NCBI GenBank assembly: GCA_011800155.1 | Contig: CM022370.1 | Coordinates: forward strand, 2,170,001-2,234,000 | Origin: Flammulina velutipes | Taxonomy: Eukaryota > Basidiomycota > Agaricomycetes > Agaricales > Physalacriaceae | Reading direction: 5' to 3' | DNA: 64,000 bases | In this document: positions 21,935 to 31,151 of the stretch, piece after piece | How the letters are laid out: each line of letters opens with the position of its first letter | Numbering within the stretch: the first letter of the stretch is position 1 | The notes under the pieces: model-generated | Told to the model about the DNA's origin: nothing | What the model saw: the letters and a program-made list of their open reading frames with translations, nothing else | Databases searched by the model: none | Position numbers and translations under genes: made by a program

Positions 21935-24900
21935 TCATTGTTGGCCATTGCCAAAGACTTCGACGGCATTTTCGACAATCCACTCTATGCTCAAGGCCTT
22001 ACCAGCCATATCGCTAAATTCAGCACCAGGATTTCGTGAGCGCATCAAAGTCGCTGCGAAGGCATCAGTTCAAGGACAAGGAGTGAAAAGGAAGAGGAAG
22101 CCGCGTACGTCCAAACACCACACCAAGGTTGCGAGCATTCATAAGGTTGCGTTCACTGCGTTGCATAATACTATACATGTATTGGTGAGCCGTTGGTTCA
22201 AATGGTAAGACAGGGAGAAACTCACCGGTTTAAATGCAACATCAACTCCCGCACAGTAGCATAGTGTTCTGGCGGTAACTTATTAACCAGTTCCGTCAGG
22301 TTCCTATCCTTTGACACCTTGTCTCGATTCTCAACAGCGGCCATAAAATGATCGTGCAGGTCGTATGTGAATAACGGCACAGGCAATGATCTGAAGTACG
22401 TCTTGAGAACCGACGTGACACTGCAGATATCGTTGAAACGATCAAAGTCTCGCAAATCGAACGCATTGTAGTCCCCTCGCTCGAAAAGCTGCGTGATGAT
22501 CTTGCTCTGTCCAGAGCCGCCAGTTTTCCGGTATATGCCTTCATACTCCAGCGCTATGGAACCATTCAGTGCTTGTTCGCTCAAATTTGGTTCGAGGTGG
22601 ACATACCAATGGATTCCACAGCATCGATACATTTCTCAACGATCACTGGGACTAGACGAGAACCACCTTCGAGTTGTGCATCCGCGTGAACTTGCTCGAC
22701 AAGATCACGTCCGAACATCGAAGGAGCTATAATAAAAGAGTCACGAAAGGGTTATACGAAGAAGAACAAATGCACATACGCATAGGTTGACTATCATCAC
22801 GCGCTGACGCTTGATGAGAACATGCAACCTGCACTTGATTGATGCATCGAACATGCACAGATATGTTGCACCCTGTAGATCATCAAGATCGGCCACGAAA
22901 ATCAAAGACACGAACTTACCATTGCAACGAAGCTGAGAGCCCCACATCTTGTCTCCGCAATGGTCGCATCGCGTAAAGCGTAGAACGCTGAGCTGCTGGA
23001 AGTTGTGTTCAGTCTGCGACTTGCTTCGATCCATAGCGGGACTGGAGATGGTATCCTTCGCTCGTGATCCCGGCCACTTGATGAACTTGCCCTTCGAGGG
23101 CGTAGGCAGTTCGATATCAGACTTTGAGAACTTTGGTCGAAGTTCATTCAGAGTCATGGAATCGTCCGTCGCTAATGATGTAGTAGATGTGTACAGGTTT
23201 TGTTGCAGTGGCGTCTGTGGAGCTTGAGGCCGCATCCGTTCTTCAGATGGCTGCGACGCGACGTTCTTTTTGAGAGGTGTTTCTGGTAGATTGTCCATCC
23301 GGCGCGCGTATTGAGCACTGAGCTGGGCGAGCTCCTCGTTCCGTGCATTGAGCACTGTCGTCTCCTCCAAGAAAACGTCACGAACAGCCTTGAGTTCAGC
23401 AATCTCTCTGGCAAGGACCTCCCGCTCTTTCGAGAGCGGCGCCAGCTCCTTCTGGTATTGTGATTTGAGGTTGTCCAGCCGCATCGTCAATGATCGATTT
23501 AATAGTGCTGGTCTCTGTTCCACGTTGGAGCTATTGACAATAAGCTTCAGGTCGAGATAACACGGTTTACACTTACCTCTTCGCCGCAGAGAGTTCCTCC
23601 ACTTCCGCCAATGCCATATCCCTATCAACAGTCAATTTGGAGAGATCTTGTTCCAGTCCTGACAACTTGTCGCTGAGGTCTTTGGTCATCTGTTGTCGCA
23701 GCTCTTGCTTGCGCGAGTCACCAGACAGTGTAGTGAGACGCGCGGCTTGACCAGAGAGCAGCACTCGGAGTCGGGTTACTTCAGCTTCCGCATCACGTCG
23801 CGCTTTCAATTCACGGTCGTATTCGGTTTGAGCCACAGTGAGACCTTCGATGTACTGCTTGCTTGCTCTCTGAAAAAGAAAATGAGACATAAAGTCATCC
23901 GACCCCACTTGTCACATACCTTCATACCGTCGAATCGGCCCTTTAGTTCGAGTAGATCGGTCTTACGGACTTGCATGGAGCTTAAAATGGCTTCAACAAA
24001 AGCTCGATCCATTTTCAACTGTTGTGCACCACGGTCCCGAGCATCCGTCAACGCTTCTTGCAAGCGAACGAAAACGAAATCCGGGTTCTCTTTCTCTGGT
24101 CGAGAGAAACTAGATGACGACGATGAATCTGGGGGACTCAAGGTGAATTGAGTTTCTCCTTGAGGTTCGGATGTTATTTGTATAGGCGGCACCGATGAGG
24201 GCGTCGATGGTCTGAAAACAAAAATGAGCAATATGAACTATCAAGAAATAGAAAGACGAACTTCTCGTCCCTCCTTTGCTCGCTACTACTCCTTCCTTTT
24301 GAACTAACGGTTTCAGCGGAAACAAATGCTGTCCGGTCGCTATCAGGAGTAGACGATACTCCGTTTGCTTGGAGGGATGAGGCTGTAGGAGGAGGTGTAG
24401 GCGGTACATCGTCATCGCTTCCTTCCCCCCGAGGAGCCAGTTGATCAAGAGATTTCAATGAATTGATGCCACCGACAGAATTCAAAAGGTCTGAAAAATC
24501 TGCCGTGTTCATCGAGAATCGAATGGGAGGTAGCGCAGGCGCTATGAAAGTTGAATGGGAGGTTTGTTCGACGGGAGACGATTCAGACATGTCATCTGAA
24601 CCACTGTCCTGCTGGGAGACATTAGACGAATCCGCATCGTATTCGCCTTGGGGTGATAAACCATCAGGCGATCGTTCGTGTTCTCGTTTGGGCGGTGGGA
24701 CCGGAGGAATCGAATCCTGCGATTCGGAATGGCGGTGGTAATCATGCTCGCCTTCGGTATCTGTACTTTCAACGCTATGCGGGACGGCAGCTCTAGAAGG
24801 TGCTCTTGAAGCATCCTTTGGTGATATTGCGCCGTTAGCGGTGGAGGGACGTTTTTCTCGTGTCGGTGGGCGCTCTCTGGTTGGCGGGCGCTCATCAAAC

Positions 24901-26417
24901 GAGCGACGGGGACGGACAGTGTCAGGACTAGGAAGACCGTTGGAGGTGGGGGTATCACGTGGAGAGCTCAGTTTCCGTGATCGAGGAGTGGTATCATCGG
25001 CTGAGGACGTTGGCTGAAGCAAAGTGCCCTGTTCGTCGCCCGTCGCTCGTCGCCTCGGAGATCCTCTACCATTCACTCTATCGTCCTCCGATGCTAAATC
25101 GCGAGTTCGGCTGCCGTCACTATGAATAGAGTCATTGGACAGTGGCCGAGATTCTGCGAAGTGTTCCCGTCGAGGTGATGCCACATACGACGAGTCCGTT
25201 CCGTTCTGCCTCGGTGGTGTGGCAGAACGAGAACCTTGCTGCTGCTGCTGCAAAAACGAGGCAGCAATCGGCGATAAACTGGGAGATGCGGCCGCAGGGG
25301 GACTTGCTGCTGGCGCTTGTAGATTATTTAAGGTGAGGCTAGGGTTGATAGAGCGTCTCTTGTCGCGGGCCGAAGTTGCTACGTCTAGAGACCCGTTGGC
25401 TCTACCTTCCTGATGGATAAATTGCTCGGAAGATGTTGACGACTGATGAGGTAGTAAAGGTCTCGATGGAGTGGCATTATCGACGGGAGGGGCGACCGTT
25501 ACAGATAACGGCTGCTGATGTTGGGGAGGCTGGGGGAACATTGGTGTCAAGTAAGAAGGAGATGACTGTGCGGGAGCCTTTGTTCGTTGGCTGGTTGGCG
25601 AGAATGCGTCGTCGACGTAGGGACCGGAACGACGGCGATTCGGAGGGACTTTGTTCCTCGGAGTGGTTTGCTCGTTTGGTGTAGATGCATGGTACGTTTT
25701 GGACGAGAGGGGAGTGTCGTATGGGTTGAGGGCGGGCGAGGGTTGCTGTACAATTATCAGGAAACACCGCCAAGTAGAGCGCAAAAGTACTTACGCCATT
25801 CTCGCGCTTGTATTTTCCATCCCGAGAGGACGCACTGCCGCCAGCTTTTTCCCGTTCCGCTTTTCTCTGAGCGTGCTTCCTAATCTTGATCATGCGCTCG
25901 TTGTGGCAGTCCATACAGTATATTCCCTGGCTTGTTTTCGCGAACACGAGCTCGTCGATGCGGTTACGGCACACTTTGCATTTAAAGCAATGTGCATGGT
26001 AAGAGTCATCTCCGGTCATTATTGCTTCGTCGAGTATTGGTAGTTGGCAGACATTGCAGTTGTACGAGCAGCTGGCGCAAACGGGGGAGCCATCCGAGAG
26101 AAGGAGGAGATTCGTATCCGCAGTGACCTTGTTTCCGCATTTTGCGCATTTAAAGCAGTCGACATGGAAGAATGATTGTCTGTGGATGTTTGTTGAGCGA
26201 CTGGTATGGATGAAAGCCCGGCCAGCTGAAGGAAACGCGCTTGGACTAGTGGAACGTACCCGAATGCTACGACCAATCCACCATCGTCTGTCACTGCTGT
26301 GAGGGTACAACCTGGACAGATCTTGTCCAAATCAACGTGTTCTCCGCGCGCGAGGTCGAGCTGGTTGTTCTGGTGGATTGAGGCCGTCGACTGGGAAATG
26401 TTCATGGTAGCTAGCAT
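21935..26417 (-). CDS. LIM-LIM-coiled coil-C1-RhoGAP protein (Rho GTPase-activating protein)
   Basis: A large multi-exon gene of about 1,200 codons. Domains in order: two LIM fingers at the N-terminus (ICPGC, FFHVDCFKCAKCGNK, YNCNVCQLPI, HCFKCKVCRNR, GIYCMDCHNE), a long Ser/Pro-rich linker with poly-Gln, a coiled coil (ELAPLSKEREVLAREIAEL region), a C1 zinc finger (RFTRCDHCGDKMWGSQLRC, VHVRCINQVQVAC), and a RhoGAP domain with the arginine finger in EGIYRKTGG and the helices NARNLGVVFGPTLMRS and DMAGKALSIEWIVEN. The gene likely switches off Rho/Cdc42-type GTPases at sites of polar growth. Two in-frame ATGs (26417 and 26405) compete. Its 5' part and promoter are duplicated in the next gene. Confidence 0.88.
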
Positions 26418-26597
26418 TGTTGCTAGTACAGGGGGCTAGGCCGTCAATAAATAGAGACCGCCGGGGTGTTCTACCAGTGGGAAAGAGAGAGAAATACGGG
26501 TATAAAGCGAGAGACGGCTGGTGAACGTCGCCCGAATATTGGCGGAAGGGCAAAGCGCGCGCTCGAACGAACCGTGGCGCTAATCGTAAAGCAGGGT
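25157..26597 (-). repeat. donor block of a segmental duplication (LIM exons plus promoter of the RhoGAP gene)
   Basis: This block aligns with 29105-30382 in the same orientation and is highly similar throughout, both in exons and in the two introns and upstream DNA. It runs from the middle of the Ser/Pro-rich linker (near the CGAAGTGTTCCCG site) to the AAAGCAGGGTT sequence upstream of the gene. Relative to the copy it holds an extra stretch of about 205 bases around 25547-25750 and a 21-base stretch near 25310-25330, and lacks an insertion in the promoter. It is read as the donor because it sits in a full-length gene. Confidence 0.9.
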
Positions 26598-27463
26598 TAC
26601 GGTGGCGGTGCAGACTCTCTTTTGCGTAACAACACCAAACAAATTGGAATTGCAGATCCTGGCAACGCGCCACGCGCACGGTGGGGCAACCATTTGCTTT
26701 CAATCAATAGCCTTTCCATTCAGAACGACCGTCTAGCCACAATACTATGCCTACCGTCTGTCAAACGTGTTGCTAAATCTCACTGGCCTGCAACGTTTGA
26801 CTGGTGCTGGACCCATCCACCGGTAGCGGCAGATCACTGCATTTGTGCTTCCGGCCCTGACCCGTGTATCGCGCCACTTGCAAGTTCAAGTTCCTTACAT
26901 TTCCTCCTGGGTCTATCCAACTTCTGCACTGTTGGTATCACTGTTATTACGGAAATAGGTACGAGTGCCTATCTCGGCCGTACTATGCAACAGCCTCCTG
27001 AGTCATCGCGCTCGCTAAATACCGCTAAATCTAGATCTTCGGAGCGAGGCAAGTATGCATCCGTGTGGCGCATATCCAACGTGAAGCTGATTTCCAAACT
27101 CACACCTTGTTCCCATCTTGAGGTTGTGAGTACCTCACGTGAGTATTCCCTCGAGTGTGGTATAGAACCTTGCAAGTACATTAAATATAGCATCTAACTT
27201 TACATTATTTTAAGCCTTGGTGACCTTCTGTCTCCATGCAATGTCCCCAATAGAGAACCCCAGACCGTAGGAATGCCCCCCAAGGCAGAAACATTCCCAT
27301 GGTGGGGTTATTGCGAGTACTCGCGGGCCGTGTTGGCCAGTTAGTGCGCCACACAAACGAGGTAAAGTGCGCCACACAAGGGTATGTGGATGAATATTTC
27401 TACATCAAATGCTTGAAAGTCGCAAGTACCCTCACTCCATCAATTCTACCAGAGACATTATGT
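26598..27463. other. intergenic region between RhoGAP promoter and kinase 3' end
   Basis: About 870 bases with no gene I can support, lying between the duplicated promoter block and the stop codon of the LIM-kinase gene. It includes a small direct repeat at about 27343-27381 (GTGCGCCACACAA twice, 20 bases apart). The sequence does not match the region on the far side of the copy, so homology stops sharply at the block end. Confidence 0.5.
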
Positions 27464-30150
27464 CTATGGATCCAAGTTCAGCTGGTCTATCAGTCTATCC
27501 AAAGGCCCCCGTAAACACCTCAAGACCTCTCCTGCATCCGGCCTATCCATTGCTTCAAAAGCCAAACACTGATCCACAACATCCCACACCGCTTGCATCA
27601 GAAACGTCGTCGGTGAAGGCAATGGTTTCTTCTTCTTGAGAAGCACTTCCGCGAGTATCGCTGGGTCATTGCGAATATTCGGAAATGGTGCTTTCCCACT
27701 ACAGATCTGCACAAGACATAAAGGATAAGAGAGGCCATTATTGTGCATTCTATTGAAAATGTCACCTCGATGACTGTACACCCAAAGGCGTAGATATCTC
27801 GTGAGGGTATATGGTCAGCCTGACAACCAGTGCTTTCATTGAAGAGAAACGACTCTGGAGCAAGCCAACGCGCTGCCCCGCCATTGATTCTCGAAGAAGC
27901 AACACGGGAGTCGACGACTGTCGTAAGCCCAAAATCAGCAAGACAACAGGTTAAACCATCCTGCACAAGGATATTTGCCTGTCTTTAATGTTAAGAACGA
28001 TGAGGGAAACATTGAGGATATGAAATTACGCCACGAATATCAGCATGCACAAGAGGTGTTTCATGTGAATGGAGAAATTGAATCCCTTCCATGACCTCGA
28101 TGATCTAATTTGTATGTATGGGAACGGGTAGGCCGGAACAGATGATACGTGTGACTTCTCACCACCTGCATTCGATTATGTGTTGGTTGTCTTTGAAGAA
28201 ATTGGTTTATATTGCCATTTTTCATACACGGAGAAATGAGGCAAGGCCGTGGGAAGAAAGTCGTAGTGTTAACGCCGAGAAAGGGTAGTATGTTTGGATG
28301 TCGAAGTTGACGCCACAGTAAGGCCTCTTGGCGGAATGCCTACAAAAAAGTGCAGATTTCAGAATGGTGAAGATGATGTTCGTACCTTCGAAGTCCTGAT
28401 GTAATCGTCGTCGTCGTCATTGCCAAATGTTCGAAGAACCTTGAGAGCCACTCTTTGAGAACCGACTTGCCCGAACCAAACATCCTAAACAGCCCGTGTG
28501 GGTAAATGGCGGGAAGCGCTACACAGACTGTTCTACTTACAGCAAATCCTCCTCCAAATGATGGTGTATCCCTCTCTGTGAAAACGTTCTCTATCGTCAT
28601 GGATGTTGGAAGACAACCAGAAAGCGCGCTGATAGCTTGAAGGCACTTGATGGCTGCGGTACGGGAGGCGGACTCCATGTGTGGAGAGTAGTCTAGAATC
28701 TTGTCTACGATGTGAGCAGGCAGTACTCAATGGGAAAGTAGTGCTTACCAGTTGAAGCCCATCCATAACCGTTTGAAATTGATCTGGACGCAGTTCGGAA
28801 ACAGTTTGCCACGGTCTCGAGTTATGATCAGCTATAATATCCTCCAACTGCCATACTTCTGGATAAGAAGTCGCAAGTAGGTCCTTCCATGTGAGGGAAG
28901 GCGCGTTGTCTGGATGCTGAATCGAGGAGGGGTACGAAGGAAAGATTGGACGTAGTGAGGTTTGGCTCATATCTGGCGTGCTCTGCCCCGAATAATCTGA
29001 ATGAAATTTTTCTAGCCAAGGAGATGGCGGACGAGACGTTGCTCCAGAGCCCAGGTTGTTCATAGATCCATGATACTGCAGACCATCATTGTTGGCGTCA
29101 TTCTCGAAGTGTTCCCGTCGAGGTGATGCCACATACGACGAGTCCGTTCCGTTCTGCCTCGGTGGAGTGGCAGAACGAGAGCCTTGCTGCTGCTGCTGCT
29201 GTAAAAAGGAGGCAGCAATCGGCGATAGACTGGGAGACGCGGCCGCAGGGGGACTCGCTGCTGGGAGGCTAGGGTTGATAGAGCGTCTCTTGTCGCGGGC
29301 CGAAGTTGCTACGTCTAGAGACCCGTTGGCTCTACCTTCCTGATGGATAGTTTGCTCGGAAGAGGTTGACGACTGATGAGCTAGTAAAGGTCTCGAAGGA
29401 GTAGCATTATCGACGGGAGAGGCGACTGTCACGGATAACGGCTGCTGATGTTGGGGAGGATGGGGGAAAATTGGCGACAATTATCAGTGAACGCCGCCAA
29501 GTAGAGCGCAAAAGCACTTACGCCATTCTCGCGCTTGTATTTTCCATCCCGAGAGGACGCACTGCCGCCAGCTTTTTCCCGTTCCGCTTTTCTCTGCGCG
29601 TGCTTCCTATTCTTGATCAAGCGCTCGTTGTGGCAGTCCATACAGTATATTCCCTTACTTGTTTTCGCAAACACGAGCTCGTCGATGCGGTTACGGCACA
29701 CTTTGCATTTAAAGCAATGTACATGGTAAGAGTCATCCTCGGTCATCATTGCTTCGTCGAGTATTGGTAGTTGGCAGACATTGCAGTTGTACGAGCAGCT
29801 GGCGCAAACGGGGGAGCCATCCGAGAGAAGTCTAAGGAGGAGATTCGTATTCCCAGTGACCTTGTTTCCGCATTTTGCGCATTTAAAGCAGTCGACATGG
29901 AAGAATGATTGTCTGTGGATGTTTGTTGAGCGACTGGTATGGATTAAAGCCCGACCAGCTGTAGGAAACGCGCTTGAACTACTGGGACGTACCCGAATGC
30001 TACGACCAATCCGCCATCGTCTGTGACTGCTGTGAGGGTACAGCCAGGACAGATCTTGTCCAAATCAATGTGTTCTCCGCCCGCGAGGTCGAACTGGTTG
30101 TTCTGGTGGATTGAGGCCGTCGATTGGAAAATGTTCATGGTAGCCAGCAT
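27464..30150 (-). CDS. chimeric LIM-LIM-protein kinase (TKL-type)
   Basis: N-terminal part (30150 to about 29105) is a copy of the RhoGAP gene: two LIM fingers (ICPGC, FFHVDCFKCAKCGNK, HCFKCKVCRNR) and part of the Ser/Pro/Gln linker. After EHFE it switches to new sequence (NDANNDGLQYHGSM), a conserved pre-kinase region (SLTWKDLLATSYPEVWQLED), then a kinase domain: FGGGFADVWFG, VALKVL lysine, VHADIRGANILV catalytic loop, LADFGL, an RWLAPESF segment and DIYAFGC. All catalytic residues are present, so the kinase should be active. The layout of the kinase half is typical of the large TKL-like kinase family of Agaricomycetes. About nine exons; the frame is open across the fusion. ATG 30150 or 30138 starts it. 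Confidence 0.85.
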
Positions 30151-30382
30151 TGTTACTAGTACATGGGGCTAGGCCGTGACCGCTGGGGTGTTCTACCAGT
30201 GGGAAAGAGAGAGAAATACGGGTATAAATAGACCTGTCACTGGCCGGTAAAGAGTCGTCGTTTACGCTTCGTGAAGGGTGTATCAGGCCTAGGGTATAAA
30301 GCGAGAGACGACTGGTGAACGTGAATATTGGCGGAAGGGCAAAGTGCGCGCTCGAACGTGGCGCTAATCGTAAAGCAGGGTT
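29105..30382 (-). repeat. acceptor copy of the segmental duplication (LIM exons plus promoter)
   Basis: Copy of 25157-26597, about 3.8 kb away in the same orientation. Differences: loss of about 205 bases at the intron 3/exon border (joined near 29472-29480), loss of 21 bases in the linker, gain of 6 bases in a LIM finger (two extra residues), one more glutamine, and an insertion of about 60 bases in the promoter. The left breakpoint has short matching sequence (ATTCT before CGAAG in both). The first ATG and the upstream DNA to the AAAGCAGGGTT boundary are included. Confidence 0.9.
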
Positions 30383-30429
30383 GTGGAGGAAATGATTCTA
30401 CCGGCCCGCATTCGCCTAGTGACTTTCCC

Positions 30430-31151
30430 ATGAACCACATTGTCTTGGAATGTCGACGGCGAACGCTGCCTCTTTACCCAAATTTCTTCAAAAGCCAACG
30501 ACGATGGATGAGATCAGCACCTCACCAAACCCCCAATCACAACCATTATCCCTATCCCGCACATGCAAACCCAACGCCACACCAAATATTCCATCTCCCC
30601 CATTCCGCAACTCCAGTTCAAATCAAGGCCCGATGTATGTGCGTTGCGCCGAGCTGCACATTAGACAACTATTGATGGCTTGTACTTGCAGACTATGAAC
30701 TGGTGAAACTGTATCATCCAGACAAGTCGGGTGTTTCGTCGGAGGAACAGTTCCAGGCTATCGGGCATGCATACGACGTTCTGCGGGGAAAACGCGCTTC
30801 TGGTTCGACGAGTACGGTGGATTCTGCTACACAGGCTACAACAGCGTCGAGGCGCGCTATGCATGTCCGCCGACACCAAAATCTATACGCTGGCGGCGCG
30901 GTCGATGACAGCTGGAAGGACAAGATCATTCTGGCAGGCGTAGCATTTGTGAGTGTCTTGAAAACGCTTCAGGACTATCGTATGCCTAACCACTGTAGAC
31001 TGTCATTGTCTTATTCATCCAGACAACGACCATGCGACAAGCCGCTATCGAGCAAGCACGTAACGGAGGAGGTCCCGTCTTCTCGCCACCACCACGACTA
31101 CGGACACAGCAAGATTCACGTCTATCGTCAGACCAAACAGAACCATCCTAA
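30430..31151 (+). CDS. J-domain protein with C-terminal membrane segment
   Basis: Three exons. ATG 30430 gives an N-terminus rich in basic and aromatic residues (LPLYPNFFKSQRRWMR) that could direct it to mitochondria. The J domain follows: HQIFHLPHSATPVQIKARYYELVKLYHPDKSG, where the HPD motif needed to stimulate Hsp70 is intact, then FQAIGHAYDVLRGK. The last exon provides a hydrophobic helix (IILAGVAFTVIVLFIQ) and a short Gln/Ser-rich tail. It resembles the small single-J-domain proteins of fungal mitochondria. The first exon is preceded within about 50 bases by the boundary of the duplicated block, so its promoter lies close to, or overlaps, the LIM-kinase promoter on the other strand. Confidence 0.8.

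Follow-up and report, generated by a model that had tools for sequence, protein, structure and literature searches.

Within a 64,000-nucleotide window of the Flammulina velutipes genome (C3:2170001-2234000; the genome searched here comprises 38.1 Mb in 23 contigs), a nine-exon gene model on the minus strand, running from 30138 to 27464, encodes a 731-aa protein in which two LIM domains precede a protein kinase domain. Exon 1 (29993..30138) carries the start codon and the first part of LIM1, exon 2 (29522..29912) the remainder of LIM1 together with LIM2, and exon 3 (28749..29444) a linker, a fusion joint and the N-terminal part of the kinase-derived sequence. Downstream follow exon 4 (28541..28699), exon 5 (28386..28484) with the VALK lysine, exon 6 (28166..28339), exon 7 (28030..28104) with HADIRG, exon 8 (27766..27978) with DFG and APE, and exon 9 (27464..27706) with the stop codon. 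At E<=0.01, Pfam reports three families for the protein, namely two kinase models (PK_Tyr_Ser-Thr at 7.1e-33) and LIM, the last matched in two stretches. All 16 positions read as LIM zinc ligands are cysteine or histidine, and the protein retains all 19 cysteine or histidine columns that are shared by at least 90% of 33 LIM-RhoGAP homologues, as had been predicted. The kinase part contains GGGFADV, VALK, FRQEALL (with the alpha-C Glu), HADIRGAN, DFG and APE. The original prediction of a complete catalytic set thus holds for the main motifs, including VALK, DFG and APE, but not for the HRD arginine, which is alanine in this protein and also in a related copy on contig C10.

The gene is placed upstream of, and in the same orientation as, a LIM-LIM-C1-RhoGAP gene (21935..26405, minus strand; 11 exons, 1310 aa). 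Pfam detects the RhoGAP domain of this neighbor at 4.5e-41 and none in the LIM-kinase protein. DNA alignment, BLAST and a genome search confirm the proposal that the chimera arose by duplication of the 5′ end of the RhoGAP gene: positions 25157..26605, covering the copied part of the gene and its flank, recur at 29105..30389 (both minus strand), about 3.7-3.9 kb away and over a slightly longer stretch than the pairing of 25157-26597 with 29105-30382 that had been suggested for alignment. The copied stretch takes in ~200 bp of the 5′ flank and runs through exons 1 and 2 into exon 3; in the chimera it accounts for LIM1, LIM2 and the linker. It aligns in six ungapped blocks of 92-98% identity, with 91% at the outermost edge; BLAST recovers the same copy as segments with identities of 93, 89 and 88% and places its end at 30382. 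The copy had been described as near-identical, a wording that does not fit its 7-12% DNA divergence, a net deletion of 203 bp in the chimera that extends from late intron 2 into exon 3 and took the beginning of that exon, and three coding indels (+6, -21 and +3 bp relative to the RhoGAP gene), all of them in frame. In a search of the whole genome with the RhoGAP gene DNA, the only non-self match was its own 5′ part at the chimera. The closest LIM-RhoGAP matches among those listed come from Armillaria, Cylindrobasidium and Desarmillaria. Four LIM-RhoGAP relatives in other mushrooms (P0007, P0028, P0074 and P0115) are listed with LIM and without a RhoGAP domain; these are either gene models that were split or additional partial copies.

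The kinase half, too, was copied, from a second donor that the original prediction had missed. By DNA search, the segment 27402..29106 (minus strand) is 88.8% identical to C10:2088824-2090538, and the copy extends over the introns and for 62 bp into the 3′ flank. The parent kinase on C10 has its own N-terminus upstream, in which Pfam finds no LIM match, and further kinase matches lie nearby on the same contig. The unfused state of the kinase, which it had been proposed to seek in related genomes, is thus present in the same genome as a LIM-free parent. Alignment to both donors places the joint at 29105..29106 (minus strand), exactly where homology between the chimera and the C10 kinase begins. 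The chimera reads ...GAACACTTCG|AGAATGACGCC... at this point, within exon 3 and with the frame kept. On the RhoGAP side the sequence is ...GAACACTTCG and on the C10 side CGAGAATGACG..., with a 2-bp overlap, CG, common to both (RhoGAP ...ACTTCG versus C10 kinase CGAGAATG...). As a separate observation, the C10 parent's candidate first exon (C10:2088438-2088545) resembles C4:1541161-1541266, the start of a proline-rich open frame, at 74% over 108 bp from the ATG on (E=1.5e-9). The likeness could possibly reflect an older capture, a weak lead, short and proline-rich, on which we do not rely.

The 203-bp deletion bears directly on splicing. Since the ancestral acceptor of intron 2 was lost in it, a full-length product requires a new acceptor. 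A candidate, AACATCAG|CAG at 29445, lies at the end of the chimera's intron 2 (29445..29521, minus strand); it is in phase 0 and is preceded by a pyrimidine-rich run, and we infer that intron 2 would be spliced there. The resulting model contains no stops or frameshifts. If intron 2 is retained, the LIM frame stops soon after LIM2, ending in ...NISSRYP. The claim of an open frame across the join is therefore correct for the joint itself, which lies in frame within exon 3, whereas an uninterrupted path from LIM to kinase exists only if the acceptor at 29445 is used.

The upstream region has also diverged. Only ~200 bp 5′ of the ATG are common to the chimera and the RhoGAP gene, and this copied promoter contains a dispersed 63-bp element (30229-30291; 30220..30300 with its flanking duplications, no strand assigned). 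Its terminal inverted repeats match at 7/8 positions, and it is bordered by a 9-bp target duplication: GGGTATAAA flanks the element on both sides and occurs as a single site, at 26498, in the RhoGAP promoter. A genome DNA search found pieces of the element elsewhere on C13, C1 and C3. The kinase had been predicted to stand under the same promoter as the Rho regulator; ~200 bp were indeed copied, but only that much, and with so short a shared flank, now split by the 63-bp insert, the statement is no longer true in detail. On the plus strand, at ~30490-31150 of the window, a small gene that by eye appears J-domain-like is arranged divergently, ~350 bp from the start of the chimera.

We favor, with a probability of roughly 0.6, the reading that the locus holds a genuine chimeric gene of recent origin, put together at the DNA level from two donors still present in the genome, in which the LIM-linker part re-addresses a kinase. 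Substitution patterns speak to whether its frame is maintained. Between LIM plus linker and the RhoGAP gene there are 22 synonymous and 16 non-synonymous differences (dS 0.119, dN 0.025, omega 0.21), and an omega of 0.5, the expectation if the chimera drifted and only the RhoGAP side was wholly constrained, is rejected (p=0.009). The source of this signal is the linker, the best conserved part of the RhoGAP-derived half (13 synonymous and 4 non-synonymous differences, omega 0.10, p=0.004 versus drift). For the LIM part alone neutrality is not rejected (p=0.29), a result that counts against a maintained gene. The kinase half has a pairwise omega of 0.21 relative to C10, and the kinase domain one of 0.17; with 12 of 45 changes ambiguous, the polarised kinase changes number 9 on the C3 copy versus 24 on the C10 copy (p=0.014). 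That the frame has no stops says little by itself (P0 0.05-0.21). As a whole, the substitution pattern appears to favor a maintained coding frame.

To polarise the changes in the LIM part, 33 of the 38 listed LIM matches served as outgroups. By majority rule, 11 of the 12 amino-acid differences between residues 1 and 179 are assigned to the chimera (p=0.006); four of the twelve lie in the first 24 residues, where the alignment is poor, and outgroup support is thin at residues 4, 16, 20 and 24. Within residues 69-150 all eight differences are on the chimera side, four of them at sites identical in all 33 relatives, and a 2-residue insertion in the chimera is found in none of the 33. In the LIM tree the chimera has a terminal branch of 0.062, compared with 0.000 for the RhoGAP gene in the window; the chimera's branch is exceeded by those of 8 of the 33 other homologues. 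Judged from these comparisons, the LIM part of the chimera is fast relative to its sister without being extreme, and frame and fold seem to have been kept while the LIM surface departed from its ancestor. The notion that the chimera retained the same LIM-binding partners is accordingly weakened: the zinc ligands are in place, but nearly all changes are on its side, some at otherwise invariant sites, and the insertion is its own.

These changes are also what might be expected of a transient, non-functional chimera, with a kinase that was constrained before the fusion and a locus that has drifted since. The 11:1 bias in the LIM part, the splice site lost in the deletion and the mobile-looking insert in the promoter all fit such a history. 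It is harder to reconcile with a model free of stops and frameshifts, with three coding indels that are all in frame, with the strong conservation of the linker and with the rejection of a pair omega of 0.5 for LIM plus linker, and we consider it unlikely, if a serious contender. Less likely still is that the locus yields two products, a short LIM-only protein from transcripts retaining intron 2 and a kinase translated from an internal ATG. Termination of the unspliced LIM frame after ...NISSRYP and the presence of in-frame ATGs beyond the joint (MNNLGSG, MSQTSLRP) would permit this arrangement; yet the linker, which would be absent from both products, is the best conserved part, and a pyrimidine-rich phase 0 acceptor exists.

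For a single young chimeric gene, the order of assembly can be approached through non-coding sites, at which the LIM pair differs at 17/298 and the kinase pair at 64/383 (p=8e-6). The simplest reading, favored although not settled, is that the kinase was copied first and the LIM part later; a faster rate in C10 or gene conversion between the neighboring genes could mimic a younger LIM copy. A kinase segment belonging to the C10 cluster would have been copied to C3, and then, or together with this event, the RhoGAP 5′ end (flank, LIMs and linker) would have been joined to it in frame, replacing the kinase N-terminus. If protein is made from the chimera, the LIM pair and linker might bring the kinase to where LIM-RhoGAPs reside, at the cortex, tip or septum, and there the re-addressed enzyme could act on, or compete with, the Rho module. 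Work in Magnaporthe describes an effect of the RhoGAP domain as well as of LIM2 on the localisation of Lrg1, so LIM may not suffice for addressing. No orthologue of the fusion was present among the best 120 of 1152 matches, which leaves long-term retention unproven. On the favored reading, a new multidomain signalling protein has been caught soon after its making, with its parents present, its introns and flanks alignable and its joint exact to two bases. The chimera makes testable how a kinase acquires a new cellular address.

Animal LIMK1/2 consist of two LIM domains, a PDZ domain and a kinase domain, and the original prediction saw in the chimera their convergent fungal counterpart. The likeness extends to two N-terminal LIM domains ahead of a kinase and to nothing beyond this domain order: Pfam finds no PDZ at E<=0.01, the kinase is of another type, and the origin is independent and recent. 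Of the solved kinases, plant CTR1 comes nearest (1.3e-21), ahead of tyrosine kinases and RAF; LIMK does not occur in the best 60 of 1943 matches. That the protein does the work of a LIM kinase, with cofilin as its target and Rho in control, would agree with the LIM-LIM-kinase order; without a PDZ domain, with CTR1, tyrosine kinases and RAF as nearest kinases and with a LIM-free mushroom kinase as its unfused parent, we regard this as very improbable. An assembly or haplotype artefact is hardly credible, since both donors survive, the RhoGAP-derived half diverges from its donor by 7-12% and the kinase half by about 11%, the indels are separate, and the insert is private to the chimera.

The relatives of the kinase among the matches listed are mushroom kinases with 30-48% identity over the aligned part. 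The best 120 of 1152 matches include 82 kinase proteins, a few of them unnamed as to organism; those that are named all belong to what we take to be Agaricomycetes. In kinase type and in its mushroom relatives, the chimera resembles the TKL/TK-like kinases expanded in this class, i.e., the FslK lineage and its relatives. FslK kinases have been described as a group that expanded in mushrooms, 16/241 members of which have additional domains (PMC3937382), and a fungal kinome survey reports an excess of TKL kinases in Laccaria (PMC2838846). By that count, its additional domains set the chimera apart from most FslK members; its kinase may belong to FslK or to the neighboring TKL clade. With fungal LIM-RhoGAPs of the Lrg1/Rga type it shares its N-terminal LIM pair and the linker, both taken from a member of that group, and it differs in that the C1 and RhoGAP domains are replaced by a kinase. 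The extra domain is hence a copy of a domain from another host protein, the original of which is still present. In plants, kinase fusion proteins and tandem kinases such as Lr9, Sr43 and Pm4 likewise join a kinase to foreign domains; unlike in these, nothing in the chimera points to immunity or effector binding. Chimeric genes of the jingwei type arise by partial duplication, forming a new gene from two parents. The gene described here also has two parents, but it formed at the DNA level in a mushroom, retains the introns and left its two donors intact. Among the open-licence papers listed on LIM kinases, fungal kinomes, fusions and chimeric genes, the titles and abstract openings show no fungal LIM kinase or comparable capture.

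Whether the event belongs to a wider pattern can be gauged from the same 82 kinase proteins. In a tally made by hand, 23 carry a precomputed non-kinase Pfam domain (PF00069, PF07714, PF06293, PF03109, PF14531, PF01163, PF17667, PF01636 and PF19974 being treated as kinase), a number to be read with the list favoring long proteins (about 402-1279 aa) and including sub-cut-off Pfam matches. None of the 82 is listed with LIM. When three proteins were rescanned with Pfam, CRIB/PBD in P0045 and PH_5 plus CNH in P0070 passed the cut-offs, and PH_10 in P0078 fell below its own. Two further fusions, RRM/Mei2-like plus kinase in Rhodocollybia (P0034) and Gti1/Pac2 plus kinase in Collybiopsis confluens (P0107), were placed in trees of 14 sequences each. 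The fused copy has the longest terminal branch in both trees (0.85 versus 0.01-0.47, and 0.66 versus 0.055-0.25). For P0107 an intact gene, P0242, is present in the same species (58-60%); for P0034 no other Rhodocollybia protein is named among the best 120 of 143 matches. The branch lengths suggest that the attached domains are fast-evolving copies, which falls short of proof of capture, and both proteins may be annotation fusions.

Within F. velutipes, we searched by DNA for captures around six genes of the family, the C3 gene and those at C10:2089, C10:2104, C10:147, C10:2065 and C10:2067 kb, covering the 5′ side of the genes at 2089 and 2104 kb; the gene at 147 kb represents one of 14 regions retrieved. 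One of the six, the C3 gene, has a captured part with a close surviving donor. The 5′ side of the gene at 2104 kb has no second copy in the genome DNA search. The genes at 147, 2065 and 2067 kb matched other kinases and dispersed sequences that we took for repeats. From LIM-RhoGAP here and RRM/Mei2-like, Gti1/Pac2, CRIB, PH plus CNH and others in relatives, one might speculate that mushroom TKL-type kinases recurrently capture regulator domains, the copies evolving fast, by analogy with the integrated decoys of plant immune receptors, while the originals stay intact; at present we regard this generalization as an improbable lead. If true, fungal kinases would carry, as bait, copies of signalling proteins from their own cell, and such a pattern would define an overlooked class of domain-capturing kinases in mushrooms and bear on the expansion of the kinase family.

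Two arrangements on C10 are recorded as minor observations. Behind a paralogous kinase at C10:827 kb comes a STE20/PAK-like domain (C10:825802-826598) in which the usual catalytic motifs are missing by eye. Just downstream of another paralogous kinase, at C10:148.9-149.3 kb, lies an open frame containing NIIIFYAGHC, which we take to be a caspase-like motif.
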